DNA from: Bowmanella denitrificans
GTDB taxonomy: Bacteria > Pseudomonadota > Gammaproteobacteria > Enterobacterales > Alteromonadaceae
DNA: 64,000 nt
Assembly (NCBI RefSeq): GCF_002887595.1
Contig: NZ_PEBU01000013.1
Span: 1-64,000, forward strand
Direction of reading: 5' to 3'
In this document: positions 12,090 through 38,288 of the stretch, one piece after another
Layout: the number at the start of each line of letters is the position of its first letter
Position numbering within the stretch: position 1 is the stretch's first letter
The notes under the pieces: generated by a model
Databases searched by the model: none
Told to the model about the DNA's origin: nothing
What the model saw: the letters and a program-made list of their open reading frames with translations, nothing else
Position numbers and translations under genes: made by a program

Positions 12090-12122
12090 GCTGGTACTTT
12101 CCAACTACTTGTGGGATTTCGT

Positions 12123-14552: not shown

Positions 14553-15176
14553 ATGTCGTTATCGTCGAAAGTTGATCCCATTGGGGACTATTCCCTTCCC
14601 GCCAGGCAAAGCTCAAGCAAAAGCAGGGGCAATACCTATCTGCACAGCTTGTATCGGGAACATGCCGGCAATATTCGTAAGTATCTGCAACGCAATTACG
14701 GTTCTGGCCCGCCGGAGCCGGAAGATGTGGTACAGGATGTGTTTACTAAATTTGGTGAAAGTTTAGAGGCCGGCACAGAAGCGCACAGCGCGCTGATCGA
14801 AAACCCCAAGGCCTATCTGTATAAAATGGCAGTCAACCATACGTTGAATGCGATCGGCCGGGTCAAGCGTATCAATCAATTTATGGCCGAACAGATGTCT
14901 ACTGATGATGAGGGGCTGGATGAACTAGGCCCTGAGAACATTTGGGCCAGGCGCGACGAGCTTGGTGCGGTAGGCAAGGCAATGCGGTTGTTATCGGAAA
15001 AGCAGCGGCAGATATTAGTGCGCAGTCGGATCAAAGGTGAAACTTACGCGCAGATTGCACAAGCCCTGGATTGCAGCATAGCGGATGTATCCAGGCAATT
15101 GGTGGCAGCCCTGGCCATTTTGCATCAGGCCAGCCAGCAGGATGTTCACACCAACGGAGCTCAGCATGGCAGATAA
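14553..15176 (+). CDS. ECF sigma factor, FecI type
   Basis: A 207-residue RNA polymerase sigma factor. Region 2 spans about residues 29-115 (LYREHAGNIRKYLQRNYGS, then PEDVVQDVFTKFGE and NPKAYLYKMAVNHTLN, characteristic of FecI-like factors). Region 4 spans about 140-195 (LLSEKQRQILVRSRIKGETYAQIAQALDCS, a helix-turn-helix). The first 28 residues are an extra low-complexity tail. Its last 11 bases overlap the FecR-like gene. By family it is held by the FecR protein and released when an outer-membrane receptor binds its ligand; it then transcribes the receptor genes. The promoter motif at 14496 suggests it also reads its own gene. Confidence 0.9.
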   Translation: MSLSSKVDPIGDYSLPARQSSSKSRGNTYLHSLYREHAGNIRKYLQRNYGSGPPEPEDVVQDVFTKFGESLEAGTEAHSALIENPKAYLYKMAVNHTLNAIGRVKRINQFMAEQMSTDDEGLDELGPENIWARRDELGAVGKAMRLLSEKQRQILVRSRIKGETYAQIAQALDCSIADVSRQLVAALAILHQASQQDVHTNGAQHGR

Positions 15177-16179: not shown

Positions 16180-16264
16180 GGTAAAAATATCGAAGGTTTT
16201 TATTTCTGTCATATTTTCGCGGTAGCGTGCATGCCTGTGTTGGCAAGTGGAGCGTGGATAAGCG

Positions 16265-23919: not shown

Positions 23920-25003
23920 CCGCCTCATCAATAATGCCATCTGCCCGGGTCACCGGGTAGCCCAGATTCATCCAGCCAAAAATGCCTTCCCAGAGGACGG
24001 CGGTTTTGCTGTAGCCTTTGTCGCGCAATTGCCGGATCACATGCTCGGTGGCGGCTCTGGGGCAGGAGCAGTAACCGACAATTTGCACATCTTTGGGCAG
24101 GCCGGCCAGTTTGTCATCCAGATCGCTGTAATAAGGGAAAGGGATGGCCCCTTCAATATGGGCACGCTGCCAGACCGATGGCACCCGGGTATCCAGCAGA
24201 ATCATGCGTTTTTTGTCTTGCAGCGCCTGGTGTAAATCAGCAGACGACACATACATGTCGTCTGTCAGGGTAAATTGTGGGTCAGCACCTTGTGGATTCA
24301 CTATATATTGATCCGGCGTCGGCAATGCGCGCAGCGGCACGCTGTTCTGACTCTGATGACGGGCTTTGCTACGCAAAAACGCGGTGACATTATCAATATC
24401 CCGGTCGGACAAAATGCCGTAAAAGGACTTCATCGGCGTACCATCACGACCATTGACAATGGCGTAGCGAATAAACTCATCCTTGTTGTGTGCCAGTGCC
24501 GACGGATTAGCCAGCGCCGGGGCGTTGACTCCTTCGCCTTGCTCGCCATGGCAACTGGTACAATGCTGTTTAAACACCGCTTCACCTTTGCTGATATCCC
24601 CTGCAACCGGGTTTTCACTTAACCTGACCCGCTCGGCGCCGGATTGCCAGAACAGCCAGTAGGTGAGATCCCAGACTTCATCCAGATCCATGGGGCCGCC
24701 CACTTCGTCCAGATAACCTGCCATGGCCGTACCTTCGCGCCCATATGACAAAGGGCGCAAAATCGCATGCGGCACCCCGGATTCAAATAAGCTCTTGCTG
24801 CGCAATGAAGGCGCATGGTCATTGGCATAGCCTTGTCGGTCAGCACCGTGGCACAGCGAGCAGTATTTCTGGTAGTTAGCCTCGGCTTTTGCACTTTGTA
24901 ATGCGTTGAGCCGACGCGGCGGCTCCTGTTTTTCATAGACGGGTTTAGCAGCCAGACTACTGGCAAAAGTGAGAGAAGCCAGAATGGCTAAGATACGTTT
25001 CAT
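23903..25003 (-). CDS. diheme cytochrome c - rhodanese fusion, periplasmic
   Basis: A 366-residue secreted protein (signal peptide MKRILAILASLTFASSLAA). Two class-I cytochrome c domains follow, with heme motifs CSLCH at 48-52 and CTSCH at 148-152, and methionine-containing segments (GTAMAGYLDEV; GTPMKSFYGIL) as likely sixth ligands. Residues about 250-355 form a rhodanese domain with the catalytic-loop cysteine Cys312 in YCSCPRAATE and the GIFGWMNLGYPV end. The joining of electron-carrier hemes to a persulfide-handling domain suggests periplasmic sulfur oxidation or thiosulfate/polysulfide handling; that role is inference. AGGACC precedes the ATG. No other sulfur genes are near. Confidence 0.85.
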   Translation of the reverse strand: MKRILAILASLTFASSLAAKPVYEKQEPPRRLNALQSAKAEANYQKYCSLCHGADRQGYANDHAPSLRSKSLFESGVPHAILRPLSYGREGTAMAGYLDEVGGPMDLDEVWDLTYWLFWQSGAERVRLSENPVAGDISKGEAVFKQHCTSCHGEQGEGVNAPALANPSALAHNKDEFIRYAIVNGRDGTPMKSFYGILSDRDIDNVTAFLRSKARHQSQNSVPLRALPTPDQYIVNPQGADPQFTLTDDMYVSSADLHQALQDKKRMILLDTRVPSVWQRAHIEGAIPFPYYSDLDDKLAGLPKDVQIVGYCSCPRAATEHVIRQLRDKGYSKTAVLWEGIFGWMNLGYPVTRADGIIDEADAATH

Positions 25004-25199
25004 TTTGGTCCTGGGGCTTTGTTGCCTGAATACTCAAACTTTACCGGTTTTTAACAACATTACTCAATCTGTGTGGCCAATAGCGGCTTTTTGTCGTTAA
25101 GCGGGTTTTCAACATGCGGTGATACAAAATTTGAACAATTTCTGGCTGGTCAGCTGTATGTATGAAAGATATCTTATTGCAATACTAAGGGAATTGACC

Positions 25200-26549
25200 A
25201 TGCGCTTGAAAATAATTGGATTACTTGCAGCATTGAGCTTCAGCCTGCCGGTGATGGCGGATCTATCCGCTCGAAGTAAACAGCAACTGGATAACTATCT
25301 GGCCACGCTGGGGCAGCACAATAGAATGATGTTAAGTGTGGCGCTCAGCGAAAAAGGTAAACCCATTTACACCAATCAGCAGGGCTATGCGGCACTGGAA
25401 AGCCAGCAGACGCTGAATGCCGATACCCAACTGCGCATCGGTTCAATTAGTAAAACCTTTACGGCGGTAATGGTGATGCAATTGGTGGAGCAGGGGAAAT
25501 TACAATTGGACTGGACCCTTGGCCAATATTTCCCGGACTTCCCAAACAGTGACAAGATCACCATCCAACAGTTGCTGACCCATCGTTCGGGGCTGTTCAA
25601 TTTTACTGACGCCCAGGATTACAGCCAGTATATGCAAAGCCCCCAGAGTCACCAGCAGATGTTGGACAGATTTCTGGCCTTGCCCCCCAATTTCGATCCG
25701 GATGAAAAACAGGATTATTCCAATACCAACTATTACCTGCTGAGCCTGATTATTGAAAAAGCCAGTGGTAAATCCTATGCAGAGGTGCTCAACAAGCAGA
25801 TTGTTGAGCCGCTGGCGCTAAAGCGCACCGGCTATGGTGGCAAGATTACGCCAGAGCAAAATCAGGCATTGTCCTATCAATGGCAGGGGGACTGGCAGCG
25901 TGCCACAGAGACCGATATGAGTGTGCCATTCGGGGCTGGCGCTCTGGTGTCTACGGCCAGCGAGTTGAATCAATTTTTTCAGGCATTGTTCAGCGCTAAG
26001 CTTGTGTCAGCTGACTCCCTTAAAAAGATGCAAAAAATGCAGCCAGACTATGGTTTTGCGCTTTCCCCCATACCATTTAATCAATATCAGTTGCTTGGCC
26101 ATAGCGGCGGCATAGACGGCTTTGTATCGATGTCAGCTTATTTGCCGGAAAAGGGGTTGGCCATTACGGCGTTGTCCAATGGGGTGAATTATTCTTTTAA
26201 TGATGTGCTGATTGCGATGCTCAGCGCCTGTTTTGATATGCCGGTCCGTCCCCCCGAGTTTGCTACCGCCATAGACACTAAAGATATGGATTTACAGCGC
26301 TTTGTTGGCAATTACGTGTCCAGTCAGTTGCCGCTGGAGATTAAGGTGTTTGTGCAAGACAAGCAGTTGTTTGCCCAGGCCAGTGGCCAGGGCGCCTTTC
26401 CACTGACGGCTGTCAATGAACGGGAGTTTGTTTTTGAACAGGCCGGTATACGTATGTCGTTTGACGCAACTGACGAACCGCAGTTTAGCGGATTCGTATT
26501 AAAACAGGGTGGTGGAGTCTTTCAATATCAGCGAAAACCGGCTGAGTGA
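25200..26549 (+). CDS. serine hydrolase of the class-C beta-lactamase family
   Basis: From ATG 25200 (AAGGGA nine bases upstream) the protein has 449 residues and a signal peptide (MRLKIIGLLAALSFSLPVMA). SxxK appears as Ser82-Ile-Ser-Lys85, YxN as YSN in DYSNTNYY, and the third motif as GHSGG rather than KTG. It therefore belongs to the broad AmpC/DD-peptidase/esterase family but is probably not a resistance enzyme. A C-terminal ~100-residue beta domain is typical of secreted members. Activity could be D-amino-peptidase or esterase. It ends at a strong shared terminator. Confidence 0.8.
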   Translation: MRLKIIGLLAALSFSLPVMADLSARSKQQLDNYLATLGQHNRMMLSVALSEKGKPIYTNQQGYAALESQQTLNADTQLRIGSISKTFTAVMVMQLVEQGKLQLDWTLGQYFPDFPNSDKITIQQLLTHRSGLFNFTDAQDYSQYMQSPQSHQQMLDRFLALPPNFDPDEKQDYSNTNYYLLSLIIEKASGKSYAEVLNKQIVEPLALKRTGYGGKITPEQNQALSYQWQGDWQRATETDMSVPFGAGALVSTASELNQFFQALFSAKLVSADSLKKMQKMQPDYGFALSPIPFNQYQLLGHSGGIDGFVSMSAYLPEKGLAITALSNGVNYSFNDVLIAMLSACFDMPVRPPEFATAIDTKDMDLQRFVGNYVSSQLPLEIKVFVQDKQLFAQASGQGAFPLTAVNEREFVFEQAGIRMSFDATDEPQFSGFVLKQGGGVFQYQRKPAE

Positions 26550-26557
26550 TTTGGGTA

Positions 26558-26585
26558 AAGGCTGAGGCAAGCACCTCAGCCTTTT
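26558..26585. terminator. bidirectional terminator
   Basis: AAGGCTGAGG (26558-26567) pairs with CCTCAGCCTT (26574-26583) around CAAGCA and is followed by TTTT on the plus strand. It lies between the convergent beta-lactamase-family gene and the PEP-CTERM gene. Confidence 0.8.
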
Positions 26586-26589
26586 GCCA

Positions 26590-27066
26590 TTAACGGCGCA
26601 GATATTTGCGCGAAGACAAGGCTAGTAAGCCCAGGCCCAGAATAACCAGGCTGGAAGGCTCCGGAATACTGGTTTGATTTCCATTGGTTGAGACAATACG
26701 CATACTGGCCCAGGATGTTCTAACAGCATTACCATTGTTGTTCCAGGCGAAATAAGCATCGGCAGTCGAAACCTGTGGCATCTTGGCATTAGCCAGCCAC
26801 TTATTGTTTTGCAAATCAAAATCACCAAACAGGGTTAAATCCGCTAAGGTGACTTTGTGACCGTAATGCTGGCTGGTCCAATAAAAGCTGCTCAGCTCGC
26901 TCCACTGCAAAAGCTGATCCGAATTACTGTCAATACCGCTGAAGGTACCCAGTTCATCGTTATAGTTGGTAATATCAAAGGTAATAGTGATTAAGCTGGC
27001 ATTGGCAATACTACAAATACCTAAGCTGATGGCGACTACACAAGTTTTTAAGATATTCCTGATCAT
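26590..27066 (-). CDS. PEP-CTERM sorting-domain protein
   Basis: A 158-residue exported protein. A signal peptide (ending SIANA) is followed by a ~105-residue beta-rich domain with acidic turns (GIDSNSDQLLQW). The C-terminus is a full PEP-CTERM signal: SIPEPSS, a hydrophobic helix LVILGLGLLAL, then basic RKYLRR. By family, an exosortase (EpsH/XrtA type) cuts and anchors such proteins to the outer surface, often with exopolysaccharide. No exosortase is in the window, so it must be elsewhere in the genome. The mature domain is not one I recognise. Confidence 0.85.
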   Translation of the reverse strand: MIRNILKTCVVAISLGICSIANASLITITFDITNYNDELGTFSGIDSNSDQLLQWSELSSFYWTSQHYGHKVTLADLTLFGDFDLQNNKWLANAKMPQVSTADAYFAWNNNGNAVRTSWASMRIVSTNGNQTSIPEPSSLVILGLGLLALSSRKYLRR

Positions 27067-27216
27067 TAACTACTCCATGGTACGGGGATGTATCGGCATG
27101 GCTGCTCAGGCAATATTTGCGCCAATCTACCATTTTCTTTTTATTCAATACCTTAGGTGTTTTAGTCTAATCGGAAGACACTTCACGTGTAAATATAACT
27201 GACAGCATCTGTAAAG

Positions 27217-28566
27217 CTAACTGGTTGAGGAGTTGGTGGCAGGTGCTGACAAGTAAGCGGAGTCAGAACGCGTTGTTGGCGTTAGTCTGGTAGAAAAATA
27301 GCGCCACGACAGCCAGGTGGTGAGCATGCCAATGATGCCGACCCAGAATCCGGCATTTTTAATCAGCCCTACCCAGTTTATATCGGCGGATAACCAACTG
27401 GCGCTTAGCATCAACGCAACACTGCCAACATAACCACAGGCATCGGCGATGTAAATGAGAAAACCTGCGTTGCCAGGTTTGTCAGTACAGGCCAGCAAAC
27501 GTTCGAACAGCACACTGTTAAAGGGCACATAAGCCAGATATAACCCCATGCCTATGGATACCATCCAGATCACGGGGGAGATCAGATGCTGCCAGTAAAG
27601 CCAGGAAGCTGCTGCCGTTATCAAGCAGCCAAAGCCAATGCACAGATGGTTGACGGCCAAAGCCCGGTGGTTGCTCTTTATCAGCATCATCATGGCAATA
27701 ACCGACAAAATCATCAAAGCCACTGGTACTTCGGTGAGGGTATAAATCAGCGGCGAACCGCTGATACCTACATCAGCCCAAATATCGGCAACAAAGTTGT
27801 CTCTCAGATCGCGAAACAGACTCAACAATACATAGGCCAGGGTCAGCATGGCTAACCCCCAGCCATAGTGTTGCAAGTAATCCAGTCTGGCGGCTTTGTC
27901 CATTGGTACCCGCGCCCGCCGTGCGGCAATATCATCCTGATTGGGCGATGGTAATTGATCCAGCAACCATACCGACGACACCAGTAACGGCACAAACAGG
28001 AGGGCAGTCGCCAGGGGCATCCAGTGCTCACTGATGGCCATATGCAACATCAGATAACTGCCCACCGATTTCACCACCCCAGACGCCACGATAAAACTGG
28101 TGCAAAGACCGGCGGCCAGTACTTCTGTGACCCGCCGCCCTTCCAGATAACTGAATACAAACCCCCATACCATGCCAAGCGGCAGGCCGTTTAAAAACAT
28201 AAAGGGAATATTGTAAGGTGGAGGCACCAGAGCAAAGCCCAATAAAGCCAGGGCGGCCAGGCCGATTAGTTTGCAGATGCCTGCTGCGCGGCCCTGTTGT
28301 TTAAGTTCGGCAATAAATTTAATGCCCACCACTTTGGATAGTGCATACCCCAACATTTGTGACGACAGATACAGCACCTTAAGGGATACCCCCCAGTAAC
28401 TGGCATCTGCAAACAGAGCAACACTGACAGGTTTTCTAAATGCATACATACAGGCATAAGTGGAAAAAGCGGCCATAATCGCATAGGCGCAAAACAGCCA
28501 GGATGGCTGTTTCGAGAGCCATTGGCGCAAAATTCCTTTGGACTTACTCATTGTTGTAATATGCAT
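27217..28566 (-). CDS. DUF5690-family MFS-like transporter
   Basis: From ATG 28566 the protein has 449 residues and about 12 membrane helices in two halves. Segments such as YACMYAFRKPVSVALF near the start and PGNAGFLIYIADACGYVGS match the DUF5690 family, a distant MFS branch resembling organophosphate antiporters. ATG 28551 is an alternative start with no ribosome binding site. The first ~13 bases upstream hold the GntR-type operator at 28579. Given the phosphodiesterase, phosphatase and GntR genes beside it, import of glycerophosphate or a related product is the best guess; this is inference. Confidence 0.75.
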   Translation of the reverse strand: MHITTMSKSKGILRQWLSKQPSWLFCAYAIMAAFSTYACMYAFRKPVSVALFADASYWGVSLKVLYLSSQMLGYALSKVVGIKFIAELKQQGRAAGICKLIGLAALALLGFALVPPPYNIPFMFLNGLPLGMVWGFVFSYLEGRRVTEVLAAGLCTSFIVASGVVKSVGSYLMLHMAISEHWMPLATALLFVPLLVSSVWLLDQLPSPNQDDIAARRARVPMDKAARLDYLQHYGWGLAMLTLAYVLLSLFRDLRDNFVADIWADVGISGSPLIYTLTEVPVALMILSVIAMMMLIKSNHRALAVNHLCIGFGCLITAAASWLYWQHLISPVIWMVSIGMGLYLAYVPFNSVLFERLLACTDKPGNAGFLIYIADACGYVGSVALMLSASWLSADINWVGLIKNAGFWVGIIGMLTTWLSWRYFSTRLTPTTRSDSAYLSAPATNSSTS

Positions 28567-28578
28567 ATGTTTACACTC

Positions 28579-28590
28579 TGGTATGTACCA
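28579..28590. promoter_or_regulatory. GntR (HutC-type) operator TGGTATGTACCA
   Basis: TGGTA-TG-TACCA is a perfect dyad of the TGGTNNNNACCA pattern bound by HutC-subfamily GntR regulators. It lies between the divergent DUF5690 transporter and HAD phosphatase genes, 13 bases from the transporter ATG. The same sequence type occurs twice before the local GntR gene. Confidence 0.75.
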
Positions 28591-28630
28591 GTTTGGTGCT
28601 TGCTGAAGATTGATAGCAAAGTGACATGAC

Positions 28631-29305
28631 ATGCGAATGACAAAGGTGACGGTTTTTGATTTAGATGACACCCTGCTTGAGGGAGACAGTGCTCAGCTAT
28701 GGTTGGAATTTCTGTGTGAGCAGAACTGGCCTGGTGCGCAGACGGCTTTGCTGAATTGCAGTGCAATGATGGATGACTACTATCGCGGTGCTCTGGATAT
28801 GCAACTTTATATGCAGCACTGGGCCAGGCCTTTATTGGGAGCCAGTCCCTGCCAGTTGGCCCCTATGCTGGCACGCTTTGTTAGTGAGGTGATTGAGCCG
28901 AGGTTTTTCAAGCAGGCCCTCGCCAGGTTGCAAGTGCATTTGCAACAAGGGGACCATACTTTGGTGATTTCGGCCAGTCCGGCCATTCTGGTTAAAGCGA
29001 TCTGCGATTATTTGCAGGTTGAGCACTGCATTGGTATTGAGTTGGAGCTGCTGGAGGGGCGTTTTAGTGGCAAGGCGTTGCTGCCTTACAGCCTGGGAGA
29101 AGGCAAGGTCATCCGGCTCAGACAATGGTTCAAGGCACAGCAGCTCGAAGCGGCCAGCCAGCATTTGCACACTGTCTATTCAGACTCCATCAATGATGTA
29201 CCACTGCTGCAACTAAGTTGCCAGCCACAGGTGGTCAACCCTAATCCCGTATTGCTGGATATCGCCAGCGCCAAGGGCTGGACGGTACACCGCTGGCAGC
29301 GCTGA
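28631..29305 (+). CDS. HAD-IB phosphatase (SerB-like, TIGR01490 type)
   Basis: A 224-residue HAD hydrolase. Motif I is FDLDDTLLEGDS (nucleophile Asp10), motif II SAS near 118-120, motif III Lys in GEGKVIRL, and motif IV YSDSINDVPLL. The helical cap between motifs I and II fits the HAD-IB/TIGR01490 group, which includes phosphoserine- and lysophosphatidate-type phosphatases. It starts 40 bases after the GntR operator and is convergent with the repressor. It could dephosphorylate glycerol-3-phosphate or a head-group phosphate set free by the locus; the substrate is inference. Confidence 0.8.
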   Translation: MRMTKVTVFDLDDTLLEGDSAQLWLEFLCEQNWPGAQTALLNCSAMMDDYYRGALDMQLYMQHWARPLLGASPCQLAPMLARFVSEVIEPRFFKQALARLQVHLQQGDHTLVISASPAILVKAICDYLQVEHCIGIELELLEGRFSGKALLPYSLGEGKVIRLRQWFKAQQLEAASQHLHTVYSDSINDVPLLQLSCQPQVVNPNPVLLDIASAKGWTVHRWQR

Positions 29306-29331
29306 ATGAAGCGGCACAGCAAGGTTGTTGT

Positions 29332-30069
29332 TTATCTGTCCTGGGATGTCAGGCTGATGTGGGTTTGGTTTTCTACCATCAGCGCATCGTGTCGCCACAA
29401 TTCCTCGTCAAATTCGATGATCTCACCTTTTTCACTGTAAATGGTGCGCAGCACCCTAAGCCCCAATGCGCCGTCGTTTACCCCTAAGTAGGCAGCATGG
29501 GGATTAAACAGGCAGCAGGATTCAATCTGAATCGCAAAGGTTAACTGGCTGTGGCCATATTGATTCTTCAGCATGGCATTGATAGACAGGGACAGATCCT
29601 GCTTTTCCAGGCCGATAAAGTGGCGGTTATTGAAGAATATCCTTTCTACCACAACCGGGCGCCCGTCCACTGAGCGCAATCGGGTCAATTCGGTTACGGT
29701 GCTACGACCATCCAGTGCCATGACTTGGCTAATTCGGGCATCGGCCTTGCCTTTGTTTTGGGACAGCACCCTGGTGCTTGGTTCAAACCCCTGGGCAACC
29801 GTGTAGTGCAGAAAAGACACATGTCGCATCGGGTCGTAACGCAATTTGCGTGGACAGACGAACCAGCCCAGTCGGTTGCGCCGGTAAATTACCCCCATGT
29901 TTTCAAGTTGTGACAAGGCCTGTCGTAGCGTGGAGCGGGCTATCTGGTACAGATCACACAGTTCCCTTTCTGAAGCAAGCTGTTGACCTTCTGTCAGCTG
30001 CCCGGTTTGGATCTGCTCAGCAATGGTTTCTCTGATTGTCGCATAGGCATATCTGGCCATATCACTCAT
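29332..30069 (-). CDS. GntR-family repressor, HutC/UTRA type
   Basis: A 245-residue regulator. Residues ~5-72 are the GntR winged helix (LASERELCDLYQIARSTLRQALSQLENMGVIYRRNRLGWFV). Residues ~90-238 form a UTRA effector domain (VTELTRLRSVDGRPVVVERIFFNN; RVLRTIYSEKGEIIEFDEELWRHD). UTRA members sense sugar phosphates, phosphonates or similar small acids and bind TGGTNNNNACCA-like sites. Two such sites lie in its own promoter region and one before the transporter/phosphatase pair, so it most likely controls the whole 27.2-36.3 kb locus and itself. The inducer may be glycerol-3-phosphate or a head-group phosphate (inference). Confidence 0.85.
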   Translation of the reverse strand: MSDMARYAYATIRETIAEQIQTGQLTEGQQLASERELCDLYQIARSTLRQALSQLENMGVIYRRNRLGWFVCPRKLRYDPMRHVSFLHYTVAQGFEPSTRVLSQNKGKADARISQVMALDGRSTVTELTRLRSVDGRPVVVERIFFNNRHFIGLEKQDLSLSINAMLKNQYGHSQLTFAIQIESCCLFNPHAAYLGVNDGALGLRVLRTIYSEKGEIIEFDEELWRHDALMVENQTHISLTSQDR

Positions 30070-30162
30070 TGCTTCTCGCTCGTGTTCATCATCTTATTCA
30101 CCTGGGAATCATTATTCTTAGCATGGCGTATTTTTAATCTCAATTAAAAATAAAATATTCCC

Positions 30163-30174
30163 TGGTACGTACCA
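30163..30174. promoter_or_regulatory. GntR operator TGGTACGTACCA
   Basis: A perfect palindrome, 94 bases upstream of the GntR start codon, within an AT-rich stretch that looks like promoter DNA. It probably mediates autoregulation. It is identical in outer bases to the site at 28579. Confidence 0.75.
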
Positions 30175-30230
30175 ATTTAATATTTCTTTAATTAAATCGT
30201 CATGCGCCGGGCTTACTCTCTAATTGTTTT

Positions 30231-30242
30231 TGGAACGTACCA
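30231..30242. promoter_or_regulatory. GntR operator TGGAACGTACCA
   Basis: One base off the perfect dyad (TGGAA-CG-TACCA), 61 bases before the phosphodiesterase ATG and 68 bases from the neighbouring site. It likely controls the plus-strand phosphodiesterase/receptor/metallophosphoesterase genes. Confidence 0.65.
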
Positions 30243-30302
30243 ATTGCGTGTGCGAATGGCCAGTGACAATGTTGGTCCACTTAGGGAGTGCAGGAGGCGG
30301 TG

Positions 30303-31346
30303 ATGAAAAATAGCGGGACAGGCAGATATCAACAACCGGTGTGGGGTGGCGTTTTCGTCCGCCGTATAGCGGGTCTTTTCATCTTGTTGGCACTGATTGC
30401 CGTCAGCCCGTTGCAGGCTGAGCCTTTGGTGATTGCCCATCGCGGGGTGTCGGGATACTTACCCGAGCACAGTCTGGAAGGCGTGATCCTGGCCCATGGC
30501 ATGGGCGTGGATTATATCGAGCAGGACCTGTTTGTTACCCGTGACGATCAACTTGTGGTGCTGCACGACCCTTATCTGGAGCACACCACCGATATCGCCC
30601 GGCGTTTTCCCGAGCGGGTGCGTGCCGATGGACATTATTATGCGCTGGATTTTACCCTGGATGAATTGCAATCCCTGTCATTAACGCCCCGCCCGCATCT
30701 GCTAAAGCGAATGGACGGTAATACCGCTGCGCTGGCACCTCTGCATGCCAGAATCAGCAGTTTCGATGAGCAGATACGCCTGATTCGTTATCTGAACCGG
30801 GCCAGGGACATGCAAGTGGGTTTGTATCCTGAAATCAAAAAGCCTGCTTTGCATCGCCAGCAAGGCAAAGACATTAGCCGCTTGTTCCTGGCCGCACTAG
30901 AACGCCATCAACTTAACCAGGCCAGTGCCAAAGTAATAGTGCAATGTTTTGATTTTGCAGAAGTGAAACGCTTGCGCCAGTTAGGTTTGAAGACGCAGTT
31001 AGTGCAACTTATCGGTGCCGTGGAATGGGCCGACGCCGAAAGCGACTTTGCCTATTTGCAAAGTAAAGCCGGGGTGGCGGCAATGGCGCAAGTTGTTGAC
31101 GGTGTCGGCCCCTGGCACAGGCAGCTTTATCACCTGGATAACCGCCAGCCCAGCGATTTTGCAAAGTGGCTGAAACAAGCCGGGTTGCAGATCCACCCTT
31201 ATACCCTGAATTACAACGATACTCCGCAGGGCATGCCGTTTTCCGTCCTGCAGCAACTGCTGTTTGACATCGTTGGGGTAGACGGTGTGTTTACCGACTA
31301 CGCAGACCGTATTCTACCCGGTCCAGTGCGGCCAGACATCGAATAA
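30303..31346 (+). CDS. glpQ: periplasmic glycerophosphodiester phosphodiesterase, GlpQ-like
   Basis: From ATG 30303 (AGGAGG six bases before) the protein has 347 residues with an N-terminal signal segment ending LQA. The GDPD fold is clear: AHRGVSG (His46, Arg47), PEHS (Glu55), IEQDLFVTRD (Glu73, Asp75) and LHDP (His88), the catalytic and metal-binding set of GlpQ. It hydrolyses glycerophosphodiesters to glycerol-3-phosphate and an alcohol in the periplasm. It is the first gene after two GntR sites and is followed by the receptor 88 bases downstream. Assignment to GlpQ is by family; head-group preference cannot be read. Confidence 0.88.
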   Translation: MKNSGTGRYQQPVWGGVFVRRIAGLFILLALIAVSPLQAEPLVIAHRGVSGYLPEHSLEGVILAHGMGVDYIEQDLFVTRDDQLVVLHDPYLEHTTDIARRFPERVRADGHYYALDFTLDELQSLSLTPRPHLLKRMDGNTAALAPLHARISSFDEQIRLIRYLNRARDMQVGLYPEIKKPALHRQQGKDISRLFLAALERHQLNQASAKVIVQCFDFAEVKRLRQLGLKTQLVQLIGAVEWADAESDFAYLQSKAGVAAMAQVVDGVGPWHRQLYHLDNRQPSDFAKWLKQAGLQIHPYTLNYNDTPQGMPFSVLQQLLFDIVGVDGVFTDYADRILPGPVRPDIE

Positions 31347-31434
31347 CTACCCATAAATCGGATAAGGACGTTTCACCAGGCGTTAGGCGCGCTTTTAGAA
31401 ACTCACACATTCTCTAAACCAGTAGGAAGCTTGT

Positions 31435-34431
31435 ATGTATCAAACAAAACAACGCCAGACCGCCAGTGGTCTGCAGTGCCATTTCGTGAAGTCTCTGTTG
31501 TGTCTGTCGGTGGCAACGGCCTGTTCGCAAGCTGTGGCTCAGCAAGATAGCGCCTATCAGTCGGTAGAAAATGGCATGGAAGTGGTGGAAGTGCGGGGCA
31601 TTCGAGCCAGTATGGCCGAAAGTCTGGCGGTAAAGCGTATGGCCAGTGCCGTGGTCGAAGCCATTACGGCTGAAGACATAGGTAAATTCCCGGATAAAAA
31701 TATTGCCGACTCGCTACAGCGCGTGCCCGGCGTCATCATTCAGCGCAATGGCGGTGAAGGGGAATCGGTCAGTATTCGCGGTCTTGACTCCGACCTGACC
31801 CTGACCCAGCTCAATGGTAATTTTATTGCTTCTTCTCCGGGCAAACCGTCCCGCTCTTTTGATTACAAGTTATTGCCATCCGCCATGATTGGCCGGGTTG
31901 AAGTGTTTAAGACCCCTGAAGCGCGCCTGGACGAAGGTGGTGTGGGTGGTTCGGTGATTCTGCATTCCCGCAAGCCACTGGAAATGGACGCCAACGCCGG
32001 GATTATCAACCTCGAAACCACTTATGCCGATGTCACGGAAAAATACGAGCCGCAGTTTGCCGGCCTTTATTCCTGGAAAAACACCGCTGAAACCTTTGGT
32101 ATTCTGGCCGGTTATACCAGGCAGGACAGAACCAATCGCACCTTAAGTGGTGATATGTACTATTCCATGTATACCGCCGATCCTGCGGACAGGGACAATG
32201 GTACGGCTCAAGCCGTGGATGCTAATGGCAAGTCGGTCAATGATGCCTATTACTGGGACACCGTAACCGATGCCAGTGGTCGTCAGTACGAGGGCTACTG
32301 GTTGCCACGTGGCATTCGTACAGGCGTGGCCAAAGAAGACCGCGAACGTGAAGGTATTCAGGTAAGCACACAGTGGCGCCCCACCGACAGAATCGAAGTC
32401 GGGGTAAACTACTTCGGCTTCACGTTAGGGCAGAATCGCACCATGTCCTATGTGGATATGCCGGAATGGCATTACCGCCCTGACCGCTTGCTGGGCATGA
32501 CAGTGGACGACACCGATTCCATTATTACCGGCGCTGATTTTTCTGCCACAGCAGGTGGCAATGAAGTCGCGCTGGAATTTCCCTGGTATCGCGGCACCTA
32601 CCAGCGTATTGAAAATACCTCAGATACCTATGATGTGAATGTTAACTACCTGGGCGATAGTTTCTCTGCGCGCTTCGTGGCGGGGAATACCAAAGCCGAA
32701 GGTGGCCCCACCGAAGACTGGAAAGTGGCTTATAAGAGCCACAGGTCAGAAGCTCGCAGGGATGCCAATGGCAATGTGTTGACCGACGCCAATGGCGATA
32801 CCTTATATAACTACAACAATGCCTCGCAAACCGCCGGTTGGTCGCTGGCTGACGGCACTGTGAGCATGTACCTGGACCCGGATACCCTGACCAATATTAA
32901 AAATGGTCTGGGCGGCACACCGGACCGTGGCTCCATTAATTCAGGCTGGGAGCAGAGTATTCTGGAGGAAAGCTATGCGCAGCTCGACCTGGATTTTGAC
33001 GTGCAGTGGGGGCCAGTCAACCGTTTGCGCAGCGGGTTGAAATACCGGGACACCGAGCTGGAACGTTTTACCGGTGATACCCTGTGGTGGACGCCGGGGC
33101 TAAGTGCTGAGCAAGCGGCCAAACTGCAGGAGGGCGATACCTACGACAACGATCCGGATGGCCCAGGCGTACCAGACTTCAAAGATGTGATTAATGACAA
33201 ACCCGAAGACAACATTATTGGCGGCTTTAACATTAACCTGATGCCGACCATTAACTGGGACAGGTACCGGGATATTGTCAGCAGCCACTACCAGGACTAC
33301 TACTGGGAAAAGAAAATTTATGATTACAGCGTAGCAGAGCAGATCAGCGCAGCCTATGTACAGGCGGATTTTGAGCATAACAGCCTGCGCGGTAATTTAG
33401 GGCTGCGTTATGTGCGTACCCAGCGCACCACCTTATCCAACGAAATCAACGAGTACTTTCTGGATTATTACGACGATGCCACCGGCGAAGAGATCCCGGA
33501 AGACGAGCGCGAATACGAGGTGATCAAACCTGTCAGTGTGGAAAACACCGAAACCCATCTGCTACCCAGCATGAATCTGGTCTGGGATGCCACTGATGAT
33601 TTGGTGGTACGTTTTGCTGCGGCTAAAACCATTGCCAGACCGGACTACTTTGAACTTGGGCGCGAAGAAGCCCTGGCATATACCAGTCAGGAATGGGCCG
33701 ACGACCGTGCCGAATTCGGCGAACGCGAAGGCTTTGAAGGGCGTGGCGGTAACAAGAATCTGGACTCGTTCGAATCCGTACAATTAGATATGTCGGTGGA
33801 ATACTACTATGGCGAAGGTTCTGCCGTGGGGATGGCGCTGTTCCATAAAGACATTGATAACTTTATTGTGCCCATGCAAATCACTTATTCCCGTTATTTT
33901 GACGGTGAGCCAGGGGTAGTGGAAGCCGGCAATATCAGCATCAGTCCATACAGCACCTGGGCCAATGGTTCCGATGCCAAGTCAAAAGGGGTGGAGCTGT
34001 TCTTCCAGCATAATTTTGCCAGCGGCTTTGGTTTGTACGGCAACTACACCTACAACGATACCAATCAGGCGGATGTTAGTTTTAACGGCGAGAAGATTGG
34101 TCAGTCGGTCCTGGTAGGCAGTGCTGAATATCAGTACAACTTTTCAGCCTTCTATGAAAGTGACTTGTTCAGCGTGCGGGCTTCCTACAACAAACGTGGC
34201 GATGTGGTGCTGGGTAAGGTCAACGGCCTGGATGAAATACAGGACGCTTATGATCAGATTGATTTGAATGCTTCTTACAACCTAAGTGATGCCATCAGCC
34301 TGCAGGCGGCGGTGATCAACCTGACCGAGTCTGAGTCCAAAAGCTACCTGGGGGATGACAGCAAGGCCCGCTTATATCATTCCAGCTATGCCGGACGGCG
34401 CTTCTATGTTGGTTTGAACTACAGCTTCTAA
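31435..34431 (+). CDS. TonB-dependent receptor (TIGR01782-like) of the phosphodiester locus
   Basis: A 998-residue outer-membrane receptor. A long signal region ends at AVAQ, then VVEVRGIRASMAES (about 50-62) carries the TonB-box-like start. The plug contains FPDKNIADSLQRVPGV and VSIRGLDSDL. The barrel is large, with acidic loops (YYDDATGEEIPEDERE) that may bind metal or cationic groups, and ends VGLNYSF with the canonical Phe. GGAAG precedes the ATG. Its place between a glycerophosphodiesterase and a metallophosphoesterase suggests it imports a phosphodiester-containing molecule such as a phospholipid derivative or teichoic-like polymer; ligand is inference. A terminator follows. Confidence 0.9.
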   Translation: MYQTKQRQTASGLQCHFVKSLLCLSVATACSQAVAQQDSAYQSVENGMEVVEVRGIRASMAESLAVKRMASAVVEAITAEDIGKFPDKNIADSLQRVPGVIIQRNGGEGESVSIRGLDSDLTLTQLNGNFIASSPGKPSRSFDYKLLPSAMIGRVEVFKTPEARLDEGGVGGSVILHSRKPLEMDANAGIINLETTYADVTEKYEPQFAGLYSWKNTAETFGILAGYTRQDRTNRTLSGDMYYSMYTADPADRDNGTAQAVDANGKSVNDAYYWDTVTDASGRQYEGYWLPRGIRTGVAKEDREREGIQVSTQWRPTDRIEVGVNYFGFTLGQNRTMSYVDMPEWHYRPDRLLGMTVDDTDSIITGADFSATAGGNEVALEFPWYRGTYQRIENTSDTYDVNVNYLGDSFSARFVAGNTKAEGGPTEDWKVAYKSHRSEARRDANGNVLTDANGDTLYNYNNASQTAGWSLADGTVSMYLDPDTLTNIKNGLGGTPDRGSINSGWEQSILEESYAQLDLDFDVQWGPVNRLRSGLKYRDTELERFTGDTLWWTPGLSAEQAAKLQEGDTYDNDPDGPGVPDFKDVINDKPEDNIIGGFNINLMPTINWDRYRDIVSSHYQDYYWEKKIYDYSVAEQISAAYVQADFEHNSLRGNLGLRYVRTQRTTLSNEINEYFLDYYDDATGEEIPEDEREYEVIKPVSVENTETHLLPSMNLVWDATDDLVVRFAAAKTIARPDYFELGREEALAYTSQEWADDRAEFGEREGFEGRGGNKNLDSFESVQLDMSVEYYYGEGSAVGMALFHKDIDNFIVPMQITYSRYFDGEPGVVEAGNISISPYSTWANGSDAKSKGVELFFQHNFASGFGLYGNYTYNDTNQADVSFNGEKIGQSVLVGSAEYQYNFSAFYESDLFSVRASYNKRGDVVLGKVNGLDEIQDAYDQIDLNASYNLSDAISLQAAVINLTESESKSYLGDDSKARLYHSSYAGRRFYVGLNYSF

Positions 34432-34445
34432 GCCTGTTTAACCGC

Positions 34446-34478
34446 CAGCCCCTGCTTGTTTGAGCTGGGGCTGTTTTT
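34446..34478 (+). terminator. Rho-independent terminator
   Basis: CAGCCCC (34446-34452) pairs with GGGGCTG (34467-34473), followed by TTTTT. It stands between the receptor and the metallophosphoesterase, so the latter may be expressed at a lower level by read-through or from its own promoter. Confidence 0.8.
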
Positions 34479-34505
34479 GTTTGCCCTGCCCATACAGGAT
34501 TTAAA

Positions 34506-36347
34506 ATGACACCCATCCACTCCCGCTGGCTACTGAGTCTGGTCAGCCTTATTTGCTTGAGCTGGCTGACCGCCTGCCAGTCCGGTTTAACCAGCAGCAA
34601 AAAAGCCGAAGTCGCGGCCAATAGCCAATCCTTCACCCTGGCGGTGATCCCGGATACCCAGAAATACAGCCGCTATTCACCCGAGCGATTCCGCGCCCAG
34701 ACAAGCTGGATTGCGCAGAATTATGCCAGGCAGAATATTCGTTTCACCATGCATCTGGGCGATGTGGTTGATTTGCCCCATCACGACAGTGAATGGCTGG
34801 CAGCCCGCCAGGCCCTGGCGATTCTGGAGCAAAATCCCGACACGCCCTATTCGGTGCTGGCTGGTAATCATGATGTGCTGGCTTATGTGCAGGGCGGTAT
34901 AAATGACAATCAGGATGTGCAGCGTAATCCTGGCCAGGAACCCTTTATTCAGTATTTTTCTCCCCAGCGTCTGGCGACAACTGATGCAACCTTAGCCGGT
35001 TATGACAGCTCCGGTTTTAACCGCTACCACCTGTTTGAAGCCAACCACCAGCGTTTTATGGTGTTGGCCCTGGACTGGCGGGTGTCCGAGCTGACACTGC
35101 GCTGGGCTCAGCAGGTGTTGGATGAGCACCCGGATGTACCGGTGATCCTGACCACGCACCAGTTACTGAATGTGGATGCCGACGGCGAGGCCTTTTTTAC
35201 TGAGCATGGGGCCTATCTGTGGGACAAACTGATTAACAACAACGATCAGATTTTTATGACCTTTAACGGCCATCATCATGGTGAAGCGGTCAAGCGCAGC
35301 AAAAATGCCTATGGCCGCGATGTGATTATGCTGCTGGTGGATTACCAGTCCCATTTCTGGGGAGGCAACGGCATGCTGCAACTGGTGCAGTTTGACTTTG
35401 CCAATCAGGCGCTGAATTTCCGCTCTTTCTCGCCCTGGGTAGAAAGTATCACTGTTGCCGAGCGGCAGGAACATGACGAACTAAGCCGCTGGGAATTCAG
35501 CATTGCCATGGATCTGGATGCGCGCCTGCATGACTTTAACCTGTCCAGCCTTGGCCGTTTTCCGGGCAATATCGACGCTACATTGGGCTATTGGATCTTT
35601 GACGAGGAGCATCAGCTAACCGCTGCAAACGGCGATATGCTGTTTGCTGATTTGTCCGGCCGTGGTCAGCATATGGCGCTGGCGCGGTTAAATACCGCTA
35701 AATCAGAGCAGGCTGACTGGATTGAGCAAAGCGCCGAAAAGCCGCCTTTTGGCCATGCTGGTGGGGCACTGCGCTTTAAAGGGGATGGGGCGCAAAGGCA
35801 GGACAAAGGCGTGTTTTTACAGGCTAGATCTGCACTGAATGGTTTGTCTGGCAACATCGCAGAATTTACGCTGGAAGCCATCGTGCGTTTCCCGCAGGAT
35901 TGGCACGCCGATAAACACAGCTGGTCGGCGATTTTTGCCCAGCAAGCCAGTCACAGTCAGGTTTGTACCTTTCACCAACTGGACTGTCAGGGAAGCGATC
36001 CACCTATGCTACTGGCAGTATCCAGCCTGATGGAACTGCAGTGGCTGTCGTTATCGGCTAATCAGGCATCGCGCTCAAACTGGTCCTGGTCACTGAACAA
36101 ACAGCACTGGTATCACGTGGCAGTGGTGAACGACGGCAAATACAACACCCTGTATGTGAATGGTGCCAGAGTGATGCGTACCGCCGAGATTGAACAGCCC
36201 GGCGCTTTGTTGATGCCTGGCGGGCAGTGGTTGATCGGCGCAAGCAGCAGCGACGGCGACTACGCCAATCCATTTTTTGGTGATATTGCCGAGATTCGTC
36301 TGACCGGCCGAGCACTTCAGCCGGCACAGTGGTTAACCGCAAAATAG
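34506..36347 (+). CDS. lipoprotein metallophosphoesterase with C-terminal LamG-like domain
   Basis: A 613-residue protein with lipobox LTAC (Cys24). Residues ~43-330 are a calcineurin-like phosphoesterase: IPDTQKY, LGDVVD, AGNHDV, TTHQLLN and FNGHHHGE give the full dinuclear-metal set. Residues ~360-610 form a concanavalin/LamG jelly-roll (TLEAIVRFPQ; WYHVAVVNDGKYNTLYVNG; IAEIRLTGRAL), a ligand- or glycan-binding module. AGGAT precedes the ATG. It could be displayed on the surface or face the periplasm. With GlpQ next to it, an initial attack on a surface-bound phosphodiester polymer or glycan is plausible, but the substrate is inference. Confidence 0.85.
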   Translation: MTPIHSRWLLSLVSLICLSWLTACQSGLTSSKKAEVAANSQSFTLAVIPDTQKYSRYSPERFRAQTSWIAQNYARQNIRFTMHLGDVVDLPHHDSEWLAARQALAILEQNPDTPYSVLAGNHDVLAYVQGGINDNQDVQRNPGQEPFIQYFSPQRLATTDATLAGYDSSGFNRYHLFEANHQRFMVLALDWRVSELTLRWAQQVLDEHPDVPVILTTHQLLNVDADGEAFFTEHGAYLWDKLINNNDQIFMTFNGHHHGEAVKRSKNAYGRDVIMLLVDYQSHFWGGNGMLQLVQFDFANQALNFRSFSPWVESITVAERQEHDELSRWEFSIAMDLDARLHDFNLSSLGRFPGNIDATLGYWIFDEEHQLTAANGDMLFADLSGRGQHMALARLNTAKSEQADWIEQSAEKPPFGHAGGALRFKGDGAQRQDKGVFLQARSALNGLSGNIAEFTLEAIVRFPQDWHADKHSWSAIFAQQASHSQVCTFHQLDCQGSDPPMLLAVSSLMELQWLSLSANQASRSNWSWSLNKQHWYHVAVVNDGKYNTLYVNGARVMRTAEIEQPGALLMPGGQWLIGASSSDGDYANPFFGDIAEIRLTGRALQPAQWLTAK

Positions 36348-36356
36348 ATGGATAGG

Positions 36357-36384
36357 GCGGGCCAGGATTTTTATACAGGCCCGC
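36357..36384. terminator. hairpin between convergent genes
   Basis: GCGGGCC (36357-36363) pairs with GGCCCGC (36378-36384) across a 14-base AT-rich loop, between the convergent metallophosphoesterase and M20 peptidase genes. No clear T-run follows. Confidence 0.5.
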
Positions 36385-36396
36385 TTCATAGCCCCG

Positions 36397-37692
36397 CTAC
36401 TGATATTTTAAACGGTACATCAGCAGGGCGGCGCGTTTGGCTTGTTTGGGCAGTGAATCCAGCCGGCCCGTTTCTTCCACGGTGTGACCGGCCGTGCCGC
36501 TCATACCCAGCCCGTCGATGGCCATATCCACAAAGGCGGCAGTAAAAGACACATCGGCTGCGCCAGCATTCAAAGGGTTTACCGCCTCTACCATGCCTAG
36601 CCCCAGATCGACACTAACCTGACTGTAAAGGCTGAGCAGTTTACGATTGCCATCACTTGGCCCCATGGGCGGGTAACCTTCGCCGAACACGATATCTCCA
36701 CTGGTCTGGGGCAGGCTGCGGGCGACTATTGCCCGCATTTTTTCCTGCACCCGCTGTAGCTGCTCCAATGACACAGCCCGAATATCCCCTGTGACAATGG
36801 TATGTTCTGCGACGACGTTGTTCTTACCAAAAGTGCTGCCGCTGTTGCTGAGTGGGTCATGATTGACTGTGGTACCACCCATGATTCTGCCAGGGTTAAA
36901 GGTCAGCAAGGGTTCACTACGCAGCTCTTCATAAAAACTGTTAAGGATACGTGCGGTTTCATAAATAGCACCTGCGCCGATGCGATCCTGAAAAATCTGC
37001 GAAGAGTGAGAGGGGATGCCTTTTACGGTCAGTTGCCAGTCCACCGAGCCACGACGCGAGATGTTGGCGGTTTTAGGGTTGCCATCACCATTTTCAAACC
37101 CAAGCGCAATATCTGCCCATTGGGCACCATCCACCAGTGCTTGCTTTGACAGGGCAAGTGGTCTGCCACTCAGTTCCTCATCGCCAGTCATGACCACCAG
37201 AATGTTCATATTGGCCAGCTCGCCAGCGGCTTTAAGTGCCTTGAGCGCTTGCAGAATAATAATATTGCCACCTTTCATATCGGCAATGCCCGGTCCTCTG
37301 GCGCGATTGTCATCGAGTTTTTCAAAGCGTTGAAAGGGACTGTCGGGTTCGAATACCGTATCCAGATGGCCAATCAGCAGCATTTTTGGACCGTTACCAC
37401 CGTGCAGCTCGGCAATCAGATGACCGGCCCGGTTAAAGCTGGCACCGTCTTCAAAACGCGCCTGCATGCCGAGCTTTTCAAATTCTGGAATAAGCACATG
37501 TGCTACTTGTTTAACCCCGGCAAAGTTCATGGTGCCGCTGTTAATGTTGACCACCTGTTCCAGCAGTCCCAGCGCCTGTTGATTGGTTTGGTCTATATGG
37601 GCAACTAGTTTGGCTTCGGTTGCGTTTAAGCCGGCAGCTGCCGGGTGGCTTAGCATGGCGGCTAACGTCAGGGCCAGCGCTTTTCTTAACAT
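36397..37692 (-). CDS. secreted M20 carboxypeptidase (glutamate carboxypeptidase CPG2-like)
   Basis: A 431-residue exported metallopeptidase (signal peptide ending HPAAA). The dizinc site is visible in GHLDTVF, GIADMKGG and GDEELSG, and a dimerisation-domain segment HSSQIF follows. C-terminal GTAGHTVEE supplies the last ligand. These follow the M20A CPG2 type, which removes C-terminal glutamate from peptides or folates, though related members cleave other amides. It is convergent with the phosphodiester locus and has no obvious link to it. Confidence 0.85.
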   Translation of the reverse strand: MLRKALALTLAAMLSHPAAAGLNATEAKLVAHIDQTNQQALGLLEQVVNINSGTMNFAGVKQVAHVLIPEFEKLGMQARFEDGASFNRAGHLIAELHGGNGPKMLLIGHLDTVFEPDSPFQRFEKLDDNRARGPGIADMKGGNIIILQALKALKAAGELANMNILVVMTGDEELSGRPLALSKQALVDGAQWADIALGFENGDGNPKTANISRRGSVDWQLTVKGIPSHSSQIFQDRIGAGAIYETARILNSFYEELRSEPLLTFNPGRIMGGTTVNHDPLSNSGSTFGKNNVVAEHTIVTGDIRAVSLEQLQRVQEKMRAIVARSLPQTSGDIVFGEGYPPMGPSDGNRKLLSLYSQVSVDLGLGMVEAVNPLNAGAADVSFTAAFVDMAIDGLGMSGTAGHTVEETGRLDSLPKQAKRAALLMYRLKYQ

Positions 37693-37862
37693 AATGTCAG
37701 GCTCTTTGAATACCAGGTGCCGCTACTATGGCAAATTCTGCTGCGCTGAGCGACCCCCAGTCACAGGCTTAAGGGTATTCCATTTATTGGTAAAGATATA
37801 AACAGGCGTTGCATACCGGTATTAGGCTATAATCGCGCTTTTGCCGAATTCGGGAGTGAAGC

Positions 37863-38288
37863 ATGAGAGTTTGTGGCGTAGAGCTGAAAAGTAATGAAGC
37901 CAATATCAGTCTGTTGTCGTTAAAAAGTGGTTTGTTTCAGATCCCGGATTGCCGTGCACGTAAATTGGCGTTGAGTGACAACAGTGCCGAGGGGCTGCGC
38001 CAGTTTCAGGCAACTTTTGCCAAACTGCTGCAGGATTATAAGGTGGAGAAAGTGATTATTCGCCAGCGCCCACTGAAGGGCAAGTTTGCCGGTGGGGCTA
38101 TTGGATTTAAGCTGGAAGCGGCCATTGAGTTGATTGATGGTGTGGATGTGGTGGTATTCAGCAGTACCGACATGAAAGAATCACTGAAGCATAATCCTGT
38201 GTCGGTGGACTTTGCCGAAACCGGTCTGAAGCAATTCCAGGAAGCTGCCTTTACCACTGCCTATGCCTGGCTGATGCGCCACGGCTGA
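37863..38288 (+). CDS. DUF3010-family protein
   Basis: A 141-residue soluble protein starting MRVCGVELKSNEA with the DUF3010 features KVEKVIIRQRPLKGKFAGG and VVVFSSTDMKESLKHNP. The fold resembles the RNase H-like nucleases of the Holliday-resolvase type, but no catalytic set is certain. Family function is unknown. It is widespread in marine gammaproteobacteria, which supports the taxonomic reading of the window. Confidence 0.8.
   Translation: MRVCGVELKSNEANISLLSLKSGLFQIPDCRARKLALSDNSAEGLRQFQATFAKLLQDYKVEKVIIRQRPLKGKFAGGAIGFKLEAAIELIDGVDVVVFSSTDMKESLKHNPVSVDFAETGLKQFQEAAFTTAYAWLMRHG

Follow-up and report, generated by a model that had tools for sequence, protein, structure and literature searches.

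The DNA analysed here is a 64,000-nt window of Bowmanella denitrificans (contig NZ_PEBU01000013.1), which at 27217-36347 carries six genes and three matching dyads that a sequence-only reading had interpreted as a phosphodiester-scavenging locus. All six genes named there are present, and their family identities were confirmed by profile scores. A DUF5690 permease of the major facilitator superfamily (MFS), whose predicted fold finds its best matches among organophosphate antiporters, is encoded on the reverse strand (27217..28551; PF18943 500.5 bits, gathering cut-off 25), divergently from a cytoplasmic HAD-IB phosphatase (28631..29305, forward strand; TIGR01490 132.9 bits, above the cut-off of 98.3) in which the HAD motifs FDLDDT and SDSINDVPLL can be read. 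A PhnR-like GntR/UTRA regulator (29332..30069, reverse strand; PF07702 and PF00392) is followed on the forward strand by an exported GlpQ-type glycerophosphodiester phosphodiesterase (GDPD; 30288..31346, starting at GTG 30288 or ATG 30303; NF008354 290.8 bits, cut-off 254), a TonB-dependent receptor of the Xanthomonas-Caulobacter type (31435..34431; TIGR01782 636.9 bits, cut-off 310) and a lipoprotein that joins a calcineurin-like metallophosphoesterase to a LamG domain (34506..36347; PF00149 25.1 bits, cut-off 21.5; PF13385, Laminin_G_3, 45.4 bits). The GDPD has a visible signal peptide and finds its best PDB relatives in 1ydy (5e-64) and 1t8q; it is the second copy in the genome, the other one, at C6, being 51.6% identical. 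The metallophosphoesterase displays the motifs PDTQ, GDVVD, GNHD, TTHQ and GHHHG and an N-terminal lipobox LTAC. No SusD was found among the nine window proteins scanned by family profiles, and no enzyme of the profiled families cleaving carbon-phosphorus (C-P) bonds was detected in the window, whether at 25001-38000 or outside that stretch.

The three dyads occupy both divergent intergenic regions: TGGTATGTACCA (28579..28590) lies between the DUF5690 and HAD-IB genes and has the same consensus as sites beside related regulators, while the regulator-proximal TGGTACGTACCA (30163..30174) and, 68 bp from it, TGGAACGTACCA (30231..30242) lie between the regulator and GDPD genes. As listed, the DUF5690 open reading frame (ORF) opens at GTG 28671 and overlaps the HAD-IB gene; by alignment the conserved protein begins at ATG 28551 (or 28566), which most likely places the 28579 dyad upstream of both divergent genes. 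The clustering of the dyads is far above chance, with six strand-hits of the TGGWANNTACCA pattern in the window versus 0.22 expected and none of 100 shuffles reaching six; promoter-like sites in the window were at shuffle level (10 versus 10.3) and terminator-like sites weakly above it (14 versus 10.7). Throughout the genome (5.48 Mb), TGGWANNTACCA gave 24 forward and 24 reverse matches versus 18 and 24 for the backwards-read control, representing 33 distinct positions, three of them in the studied locus. A genome-wide dyad regulon was rejected, since the pattern is not enriched and the four other sites of the strict form TGGTAYRTACCA lie inside ORFs (three) or at an ORF junction (one), with no gene of the scavenging-locus kind recognised beside any of the four. 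The signal is thus one of local clustering, and the dyad a local operator. One of these other strict sites, TGGTATGTACCA (G000:C5:247026; L184 8027), falls in a short gap between adjacent ORFs of 113 and 146 aa, a pair that resembles a two-gene module.

The regulator had been taken for a HutC-type GntR protein, an assignment that was rejected: it scored 84.5 bits with HutC (TIGR02018, cut-off 220) versus 216.6 bits with PhnR (TIGR03337), its best family, in which it remains below the cut-off of 296.75. By sequence it is therefore a regulator of the phosphonate type. It resembles PhnR, the regulator of 2-aminoethylphosphonate catabolism, in having relatives within PhnW/PhnX loci, but differs from it in falling below the equivalog cut-off and, among the full-length sequences compared, in its recognition helix, which reads RSTLRQAL in the window and Pseudoalteromonas regulators versus RVTLREAL in typical PhnR-like ones. 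Orthologues are 71% identical in a congener, G341, whose recognition-helix motif opens with RSTL, and 55-57% identical in Pseudoalteromonas; within the genus, two of the five sampled genomes encode this regulator.

Beside these near orthologues the dyads have been kept, as the sequence-only reading had anticipated. In the region that separates its receptor and regulator genes, G341 carries TGGTACGTTCCA, the other-strand form of TGGAACGTACCA, and an identical TGGTACGTACCA (L140) at a distance of 67 bp, and in the alignment both are preserved and the intervening stretch has diverged; TGGTACATACCA and TGGTAYGGACCA are found in four of five Pseudoalteromonas loci, and one site in the fifth. Among 49 distinct PhnR-like loci, which are related to each other so that the counts are not independent, 15 contain TGGTAYRTACCA, including all seven of the regulator's own clade (the window, G341 and five Pseudoalteromonas; support 100/100). 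The strict site occurs in only two of 70 DUF5690 loci without a PhnR-like regulator, and in none of four Caulobacter loci, one of which (L046) has TGGTATAGACCA. In each of two related genomes, TGGTATATACCA occurs two times in a locus that also contains PhnW, PhnX and ABC-transporter-like genes and whose regulator is 37-38% identical to that of the window. Judged from these comparisons, the operator is firm within the regulator's own clade and weaker outside it; no literature was found on a PhnR/GntR operator of aminoethylphosphonate or on TGGTATATACCA.

The DUF5690 protein matched no NCBIfam family at E≤0.01, so no sequence match to the organophosphate antiporters (OPA; GlpT/UhpT, TIGR00881) was obtained, and its profiles matched no PDB chain at E≤10. 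An AlphaFold2 model built from 52 sequences had a predicted local distance difference test score (pLDDT) of 92.9, and the top five PDB matches in Foldseek were all G6PT/SLC37A4, an organophosphate antiporter, with TM-scores of 0.62-0.64 on the query; GlpT (1pw4) ranked 38th, and fourth with an earlier, poorer model. R39 and R247 are invariant in all 52 aligned sequences and, by analogy with R45 and R269 of GlpT, are predicted to bind the phosphate. Predicted fold and gene context suggest that DUF5690 is probably an inner-membrane MFS organophosphate carrier, antiporter-like in character, which agrees with the inward transport formerly proposed for it.

DUF5690 is found in Bacteroidota, Balneolota, Pseudomonadota and Bdellovibrionota and is rare in the order, with four of 247 genomes, B. 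denitrificans included, and two of four congeners encoding one. In a tree of 80 proteins, the window copy is sister to the Pseudoalteromonas copies (support 99/92), and the next branch (100/100) is a Cellvibrionaceae copy standing in a phosphonate locus with PhnW, PhnX, an HD oxygenase and a TonB receptor; the absence of a C-P enzyme, mapped as a label on this tree, requires at least 10 changes. The Pseudoalteromonas DUF5690 loci contain PhoA, PhoD, another TonB receptor and a regulator and operator that belong to the same clade as those of the window, with no C-P enzyme of the profiled families. Comparison with the window thus indicates that within this clade carrier and regulator stayed together and the enzymes differ.

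To survey the gene neighbourhoods of DUF5690, 86 loci were assembled from the best 80 of at least 535 candidates, three loci from the order, two from congeners and the window, each covering up to 10 kb on either side as the contig permitted, with neighbours detected by tblastn. The best 80 are close to the query by construction, Bacteroidota dominate the set, and neighbour-cluster identities derive from family scans of representatives rather than of each member. At least one C-P catabolic enzyme was found in 62 of the 86 loci (59 when PbfA is excluded) and two or more kinds in 51, namely PhnX or PhnX-like proteins in 52, a TIGR03364 FAD enzyme in 38, PhnW in 17, PbfA in 15 and an HD oxygenase in 11; for the PhnX-like family (TIGR03351) and for TIGR03364 the function is a proposed one. 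No such enzyme occurred in 150,505 control bases from B. denitrificans and related genomes, a control that is small and not matched to Bacteroidota. A TonB/SusC outer-membrane receptor was present in 54 loci and a secreted phosphoesterase in 45; 11 loci had a cytoplasmic phosphatase of the HAD-IB or HisJ type, the HisJ-type PHP phosphatase being present in seven. DUF5690 thus mostly stands in phosphonate-utilisation loci, which, together with the phosphonate type of the regulator, had escaped the sequence-only reading.

This company raises the question of whether the window is itself a phosphonate locus, in which DUF5690 still imports aminophosphonates and the C-P bond is cleaved elsewhere in the cell. 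Besides the 62 loci with C-P enzymes, the regulator type and operator that the window has in common with some phosphonate loci would favour this explanation. However, the genome encodes no PhnW above cut-off (six weak matches, the best 39 bits versus 360.8) and no Phn-HD oxygenase above cut-off, in a search that left out PhnX, PbfA and C-P lyase, and GlpQ chemistry is not known to free phosphonates. Nor is there a GlpT/OPA carrier above cut-off (best 56 bits versus 407.75; Ugp lay outside that search). Phosphonate use is therefore unlikely and a phosphonate locus improbable, and DUF5690 is the sole organophosphate antiporter candidate in these scans.

Two arrangements recur among the other DUF5690 loci. 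Five Chitinophaga loci (L044, L049, L053, L061 and L073) combine a helix-turn-helix (HTH)-cupin regulator, SusC, SusD and DUF5690, with no profiled phosphonate or phosphoesterase genes found. Many Bacteroidota loci among L040-L090 unite SusC/SusD, an NPP-type phosphodiesterase (carrying LamG in the one scanned), a PhnX-like protein, the TIGR03364 FAD enzyme, an HTH-cupin regulator and DUF5690, forming loci for phosphonate utilisation of the polysaccharide-utilisation-locus (PUL) type, whose targets may be phosphonolipids or phosphonoglycans.

The HAD-IB phosphatase connects the carrier with phosphate esters. Homologues of the window protein (E≤1e-35) were detected in 13 of 395 genomes of the family, and DUF5690 is nearby in ten of them (the window, G441, G652, G423, G624, G642, G466, G341, G371 and G121). 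In G441, G652, G423 and G121, the pair is accompanied by a phosphocholine-specific phospholipase C, a TonB receptor and a DeoR-like regulator, the phospholipase of G121 scoring 755.6 bits versus the TIGR03396 cut-off of 580.25 and those of the other three being called by a profile built from the G121 cluster; a Caulobacter DUF5690 locus also has a phosphocholine-specific phospholipase C (762 bits with the same family). G341, G624 and G642 combine the pair with a TonB receptor, an NPP-type phosphodiesterase, a PhyH oxygenase, an HD oxygenase and the PhnR-like regulator with its operator, and the G466 locus has PhnW. In the congener G371, only HAD-IB and DUF5690 are left, between flanks common with the larger locus of G341. 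That a phosphatase of the cytoplasm is encoded next to an inner-membrane carrier suggests that a phosphomonoester is imported. As for its substrate, HAD-IB resembles histidinol-phosphate phosphatases below their equivalog cut-offs (NF052360 162.1 bits, cut-off 280), and the PHP protein of other loci belongs to the HisJ family (TIGR01856); histidinol phosphate being an amino-alcohol phosphate like phosphoethanolamine, this provides a weak hint by analogy. A ureidoglycolate-lyase-like protein also recurs beside HAD-IB in loci of the phosphonate type (L156 11647-12435, L177 9411-10121, L178 8887-9570 and L181 10309-10998); PF04115 gave 44.8 bits on the L156 protein, and the other three share its opening sequence.

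Taken as a whole, the gene set appears to find, cut and import small phosphate-containing molecules, probably lipid head groups, and its regulator and DUF5690 carrier are, by sequence, related to those of phosphonate-utilising gene clusters. With slightly better than even confidence, we regard the locus as inducible and as serving to scavenge phosphate esters, a system in which a phosphatase takes the place of the C-P enzymes and head-group phosphate is imported. The TonB receptor and the metallophosphoesterase-LamG lipoprotein would bind and cleave a phosphodiester at the outer membrane, the additional periplasmic GlpQ would cut glycerophosphodiesters, DUF5690 would import the resulting small phosphomonoester, as gene context and predicted fold suggest, and the cytoplasmic HAD-IB enzyme would split it into alcohol and phosphate. 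The PhnR-like protein would act as a repressor on the TGGTAYRTACCA sites, whose role as operators is supported by comparison; these precede the regulator gene itself, the receptor operon and the pair of permease and phosphatase genes. The imported compound, or something made from it, would release the repressor. Phosphocholine or phosphoethanolamine would be the most likely cargo, a head group of the amino-alcohol phosphate kind and thus the ester counterpart of the aminophosphonates of related loci. Of the GntR-controlled, PUL-like phosphodiester locus first proposed, the GntR control, the organophosphate character, the receptor, the secreted phosphoesterases and a probable inner-membrane carrier are retained, and the conservation of the whole set is not.

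Several observations weigh against this scavenging system. The syntenic locus of G341 keeps the metallophosphoesterase-LamG gene (82%), the receptor (86%), the paired dyads and the regulator, but has no GDPD, HAD-IB or DUF5690; the latter two sit elsewhere in that genome, in a phosphonate-type locus with a strict operator. Together with the 86-locus survey, in which a GlpQ-type GDPD occurs near DUF5690 in the window alone, this locus led us to reject conservation of the full six-gene set in relatives. The metallophosphoesterase-LamG protein itself is found in four of 295 genomes of the order at E≤1e-20, B. denitrificans included, and its only almost full-length match (54%), in G281, stands without the other genes of the locus. 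The G398, G340 and G370 HAD-IB loci showed no DUF5690 in the fetched stretch, tblastn included; G398 has PhnX, a TonB receptor and a PhnR-like gene there, and G340 and G370 none of the profiled genes. Among the 86 DUF5690 loci, 24 are without a C-P enzyme, and six of these, some on short contigs, lack every enzyme and receptor that was profiled. The fold matches of DUF5690 span the whole MFS at similar E-values, with a root-mean-square deviation of 5.6-6.8 for the top five, and the metallophosphoesterase domain has no near relative among solved structures. Outside the regulator's own clade, TGGTAYRTACCA is present in only eight of 42 PhnR-like loci (a second locus of G341, G624, G642, G466, a Cellvibrionaceae metagenome-assembled genome (MAG), G250, G085 and G240), and none of 25 typical PhnR-like loci has the strict operator within 1.5 kb of either side of the gene. 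The regulator tree, moreover, does not mirror the DUF5690 tree, as the Cellvibrionaceae regulator falls elsewhere; carrier and regulator thus need not share one history, and it is the family of the regulator, not that locus, which speaks for its phosphonate ancestry.

The congener locus could also mean that the genes are chance neighbours, a receptor/metallophosphoesterase operon under GntR alongside which an unrelated DUF5690/HAD-IB pair and a GDPD were inserted, since receptor, metallophosphoesterase, GntR and both dyads do exist there without the other three genes. However, the DUF5690/HAD-IB pair has its own matching dyad at 28579, and GntR, DUF5690 and the dyad are also found together in Pseudoalteromonas and in the Cellvibrionaceae MAG, which makes chance assembly the least probable of the explanations weighed here.

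Within the operon, GlpQ would yield glycerol-3-phosphate and a free alcohol, which favours glycerol-3-phosphate as the cargo and counts against a head group. The locus could accordingly serve glycerophosphodiesters, with GlpQ making glycerol-3-phosphate, DUF5690 replacing GlpT and HAD-IB dephosphorylating the product; a GDPD that scores above the GlpQ-type equivalog cut-off and is the second one encoded, a genome without a GlpT/OPA carrier above cut-off, and the presence of 1pw4 among the fold matches would all suit this proposal. Nevertheless, the syntenic locus of the congener has no GDPD and none of the GlpQ type was found in the other 85 DUF5690 loci, so that GlpQ is the least constant part, and HAD-IB and DUF5690 otherwise accompany phosphocholine-specific phospholipase C or phosphonate enzymes. 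We therefore consider a dedicated glycerophosphodiester locus rather unlikely: of the earlier claim of such a substrate, the GlpQ-type identity of the enzyme stands, and the claim depends on this one variable gene, whose product could well have an accessory role in the use of deacylated phospholipids. By gene comparison, phosphocholine or phosphoethanolamine is slightly favoured over glycerol-3-phosphate, because the homologous HAD-IB/DUF5690 pair sits with the phosphocholine-specific phospholipase C in relatives.

In the GlpQ-GlpT and Ugp systems, periplasmic GlpQ feeds an organophosphate carrier. The window locus likewise combines a periplasmic GlpQ with a probable organophosphate carrier, but it has another carrier family, another regulator and an outer-membrane receptor. 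The phosphate utilisation systems (PUS) of Flavobacterium, which according to PMC8115612 are induced by low phosphate, have in common with it TonB-dependent uptake beside secreted phosphomonoesterases and phosphodiesterases, the co-localised secreted phosphoesterases of the window being the GDPD and the metallophosphoesterase; the window locus differs in being proteobacterial, in having no SusD partner and hence no PusCD pair, and in its PhnR-like, substrate-type regulator with an operator of its own. DUF5690 also has a parallel in AepP, a GlpT-like 2-aminoethylphosphonate permease described in PMC8316502 as 27.75% identical to GlpT (E 9e-37), and likewise an MFS carrier found with PhnW/PhnX-type genes and linked to organophosphate antiporters, DUF5690 through its best fold matches. 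AepP, however, aligns to GlpT by sequence, whereas DUF5690 profiles match no PDB chain and DUF5690 also occurs in loci without C-P enzymes; judged by sequence, DUF5690 is not an AepP. No literature was found on DUF5690, on a TonB-dependent, GntR-regulated glycerophosphodiester regulon or, under related topics, on this carrier, in a search that did not extend to supplements and most subscription journals, so that it may have been named otherwise before; the passages of PMC8154272, PMC12366243 and PMC10590968 that deal with transporters, TonB or DUFs name no such carrier.

Other features were observed in the window and beyond it. A PEP-CTERM protein (26590-27066), absent at the syntenic place in G341, lies between the DUF5690 gene and a beta-lactamase-fold gene. 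A second calcineurin-like phosphoesterase (12123-13019; PF00149 50.7 bits) has relatives in DUF5690/phosphonate loci elsewhere (cluster 38: L038, L076 and L092), and a fourth dyad, TGGAAAGTACCA, lies at 12092-12103, ∼20 bp beyond the stop of its gene. At 14553-19162, a sigma-70-type factor, a FecR-like anti-sigma factor and a TonB receptor form a cell-surface signalling set. Similar sigma/FecR genes adjoin other GDPD genes in G000:C7 (L160 9243-13532) and G341:C6 (L158 9352-13639), where the GDPD is directly beside a 1087-aa protein; this is a different GDPD locus, perhaps surface-signalled, in the genomes of B. denitrificans and its congener.

The analysis provides a candidate, testable function for DUF5690, a Pfam family of unknown function, names a candidate operator, and connects the scavenging of phosphonates with that of phospholipids by way of a shared carrier family and a shared type of regulator. 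In a 2023 study on the use of marine phospholipids, the direct import of intact head groups was still to be determined (PMC10132767); where DUF5690 and HAD-IB stand next to a phosphocholine-specific phospholipase C and a TonB receptor, they offer a direct candidate for such a route. More generally, we tentatively propose, at somewhat less than even confidence, that DUF5690 imports intact lipid head groups, phosphocholine or phosphoethanolamine in the ester loci and aminoethylphosphonate and its N-methyl forms in the phosphonate loci. If this is true, a single permease, in many cases accompanied by a PhnR-like regulator and TGGTAYRTACCA, would have been put to use with a cytoplasmic phosphatase in some loci and with C-P enzymes in others, and would give bacteria a phosphatase-independent route for the uptake of whole head groups.

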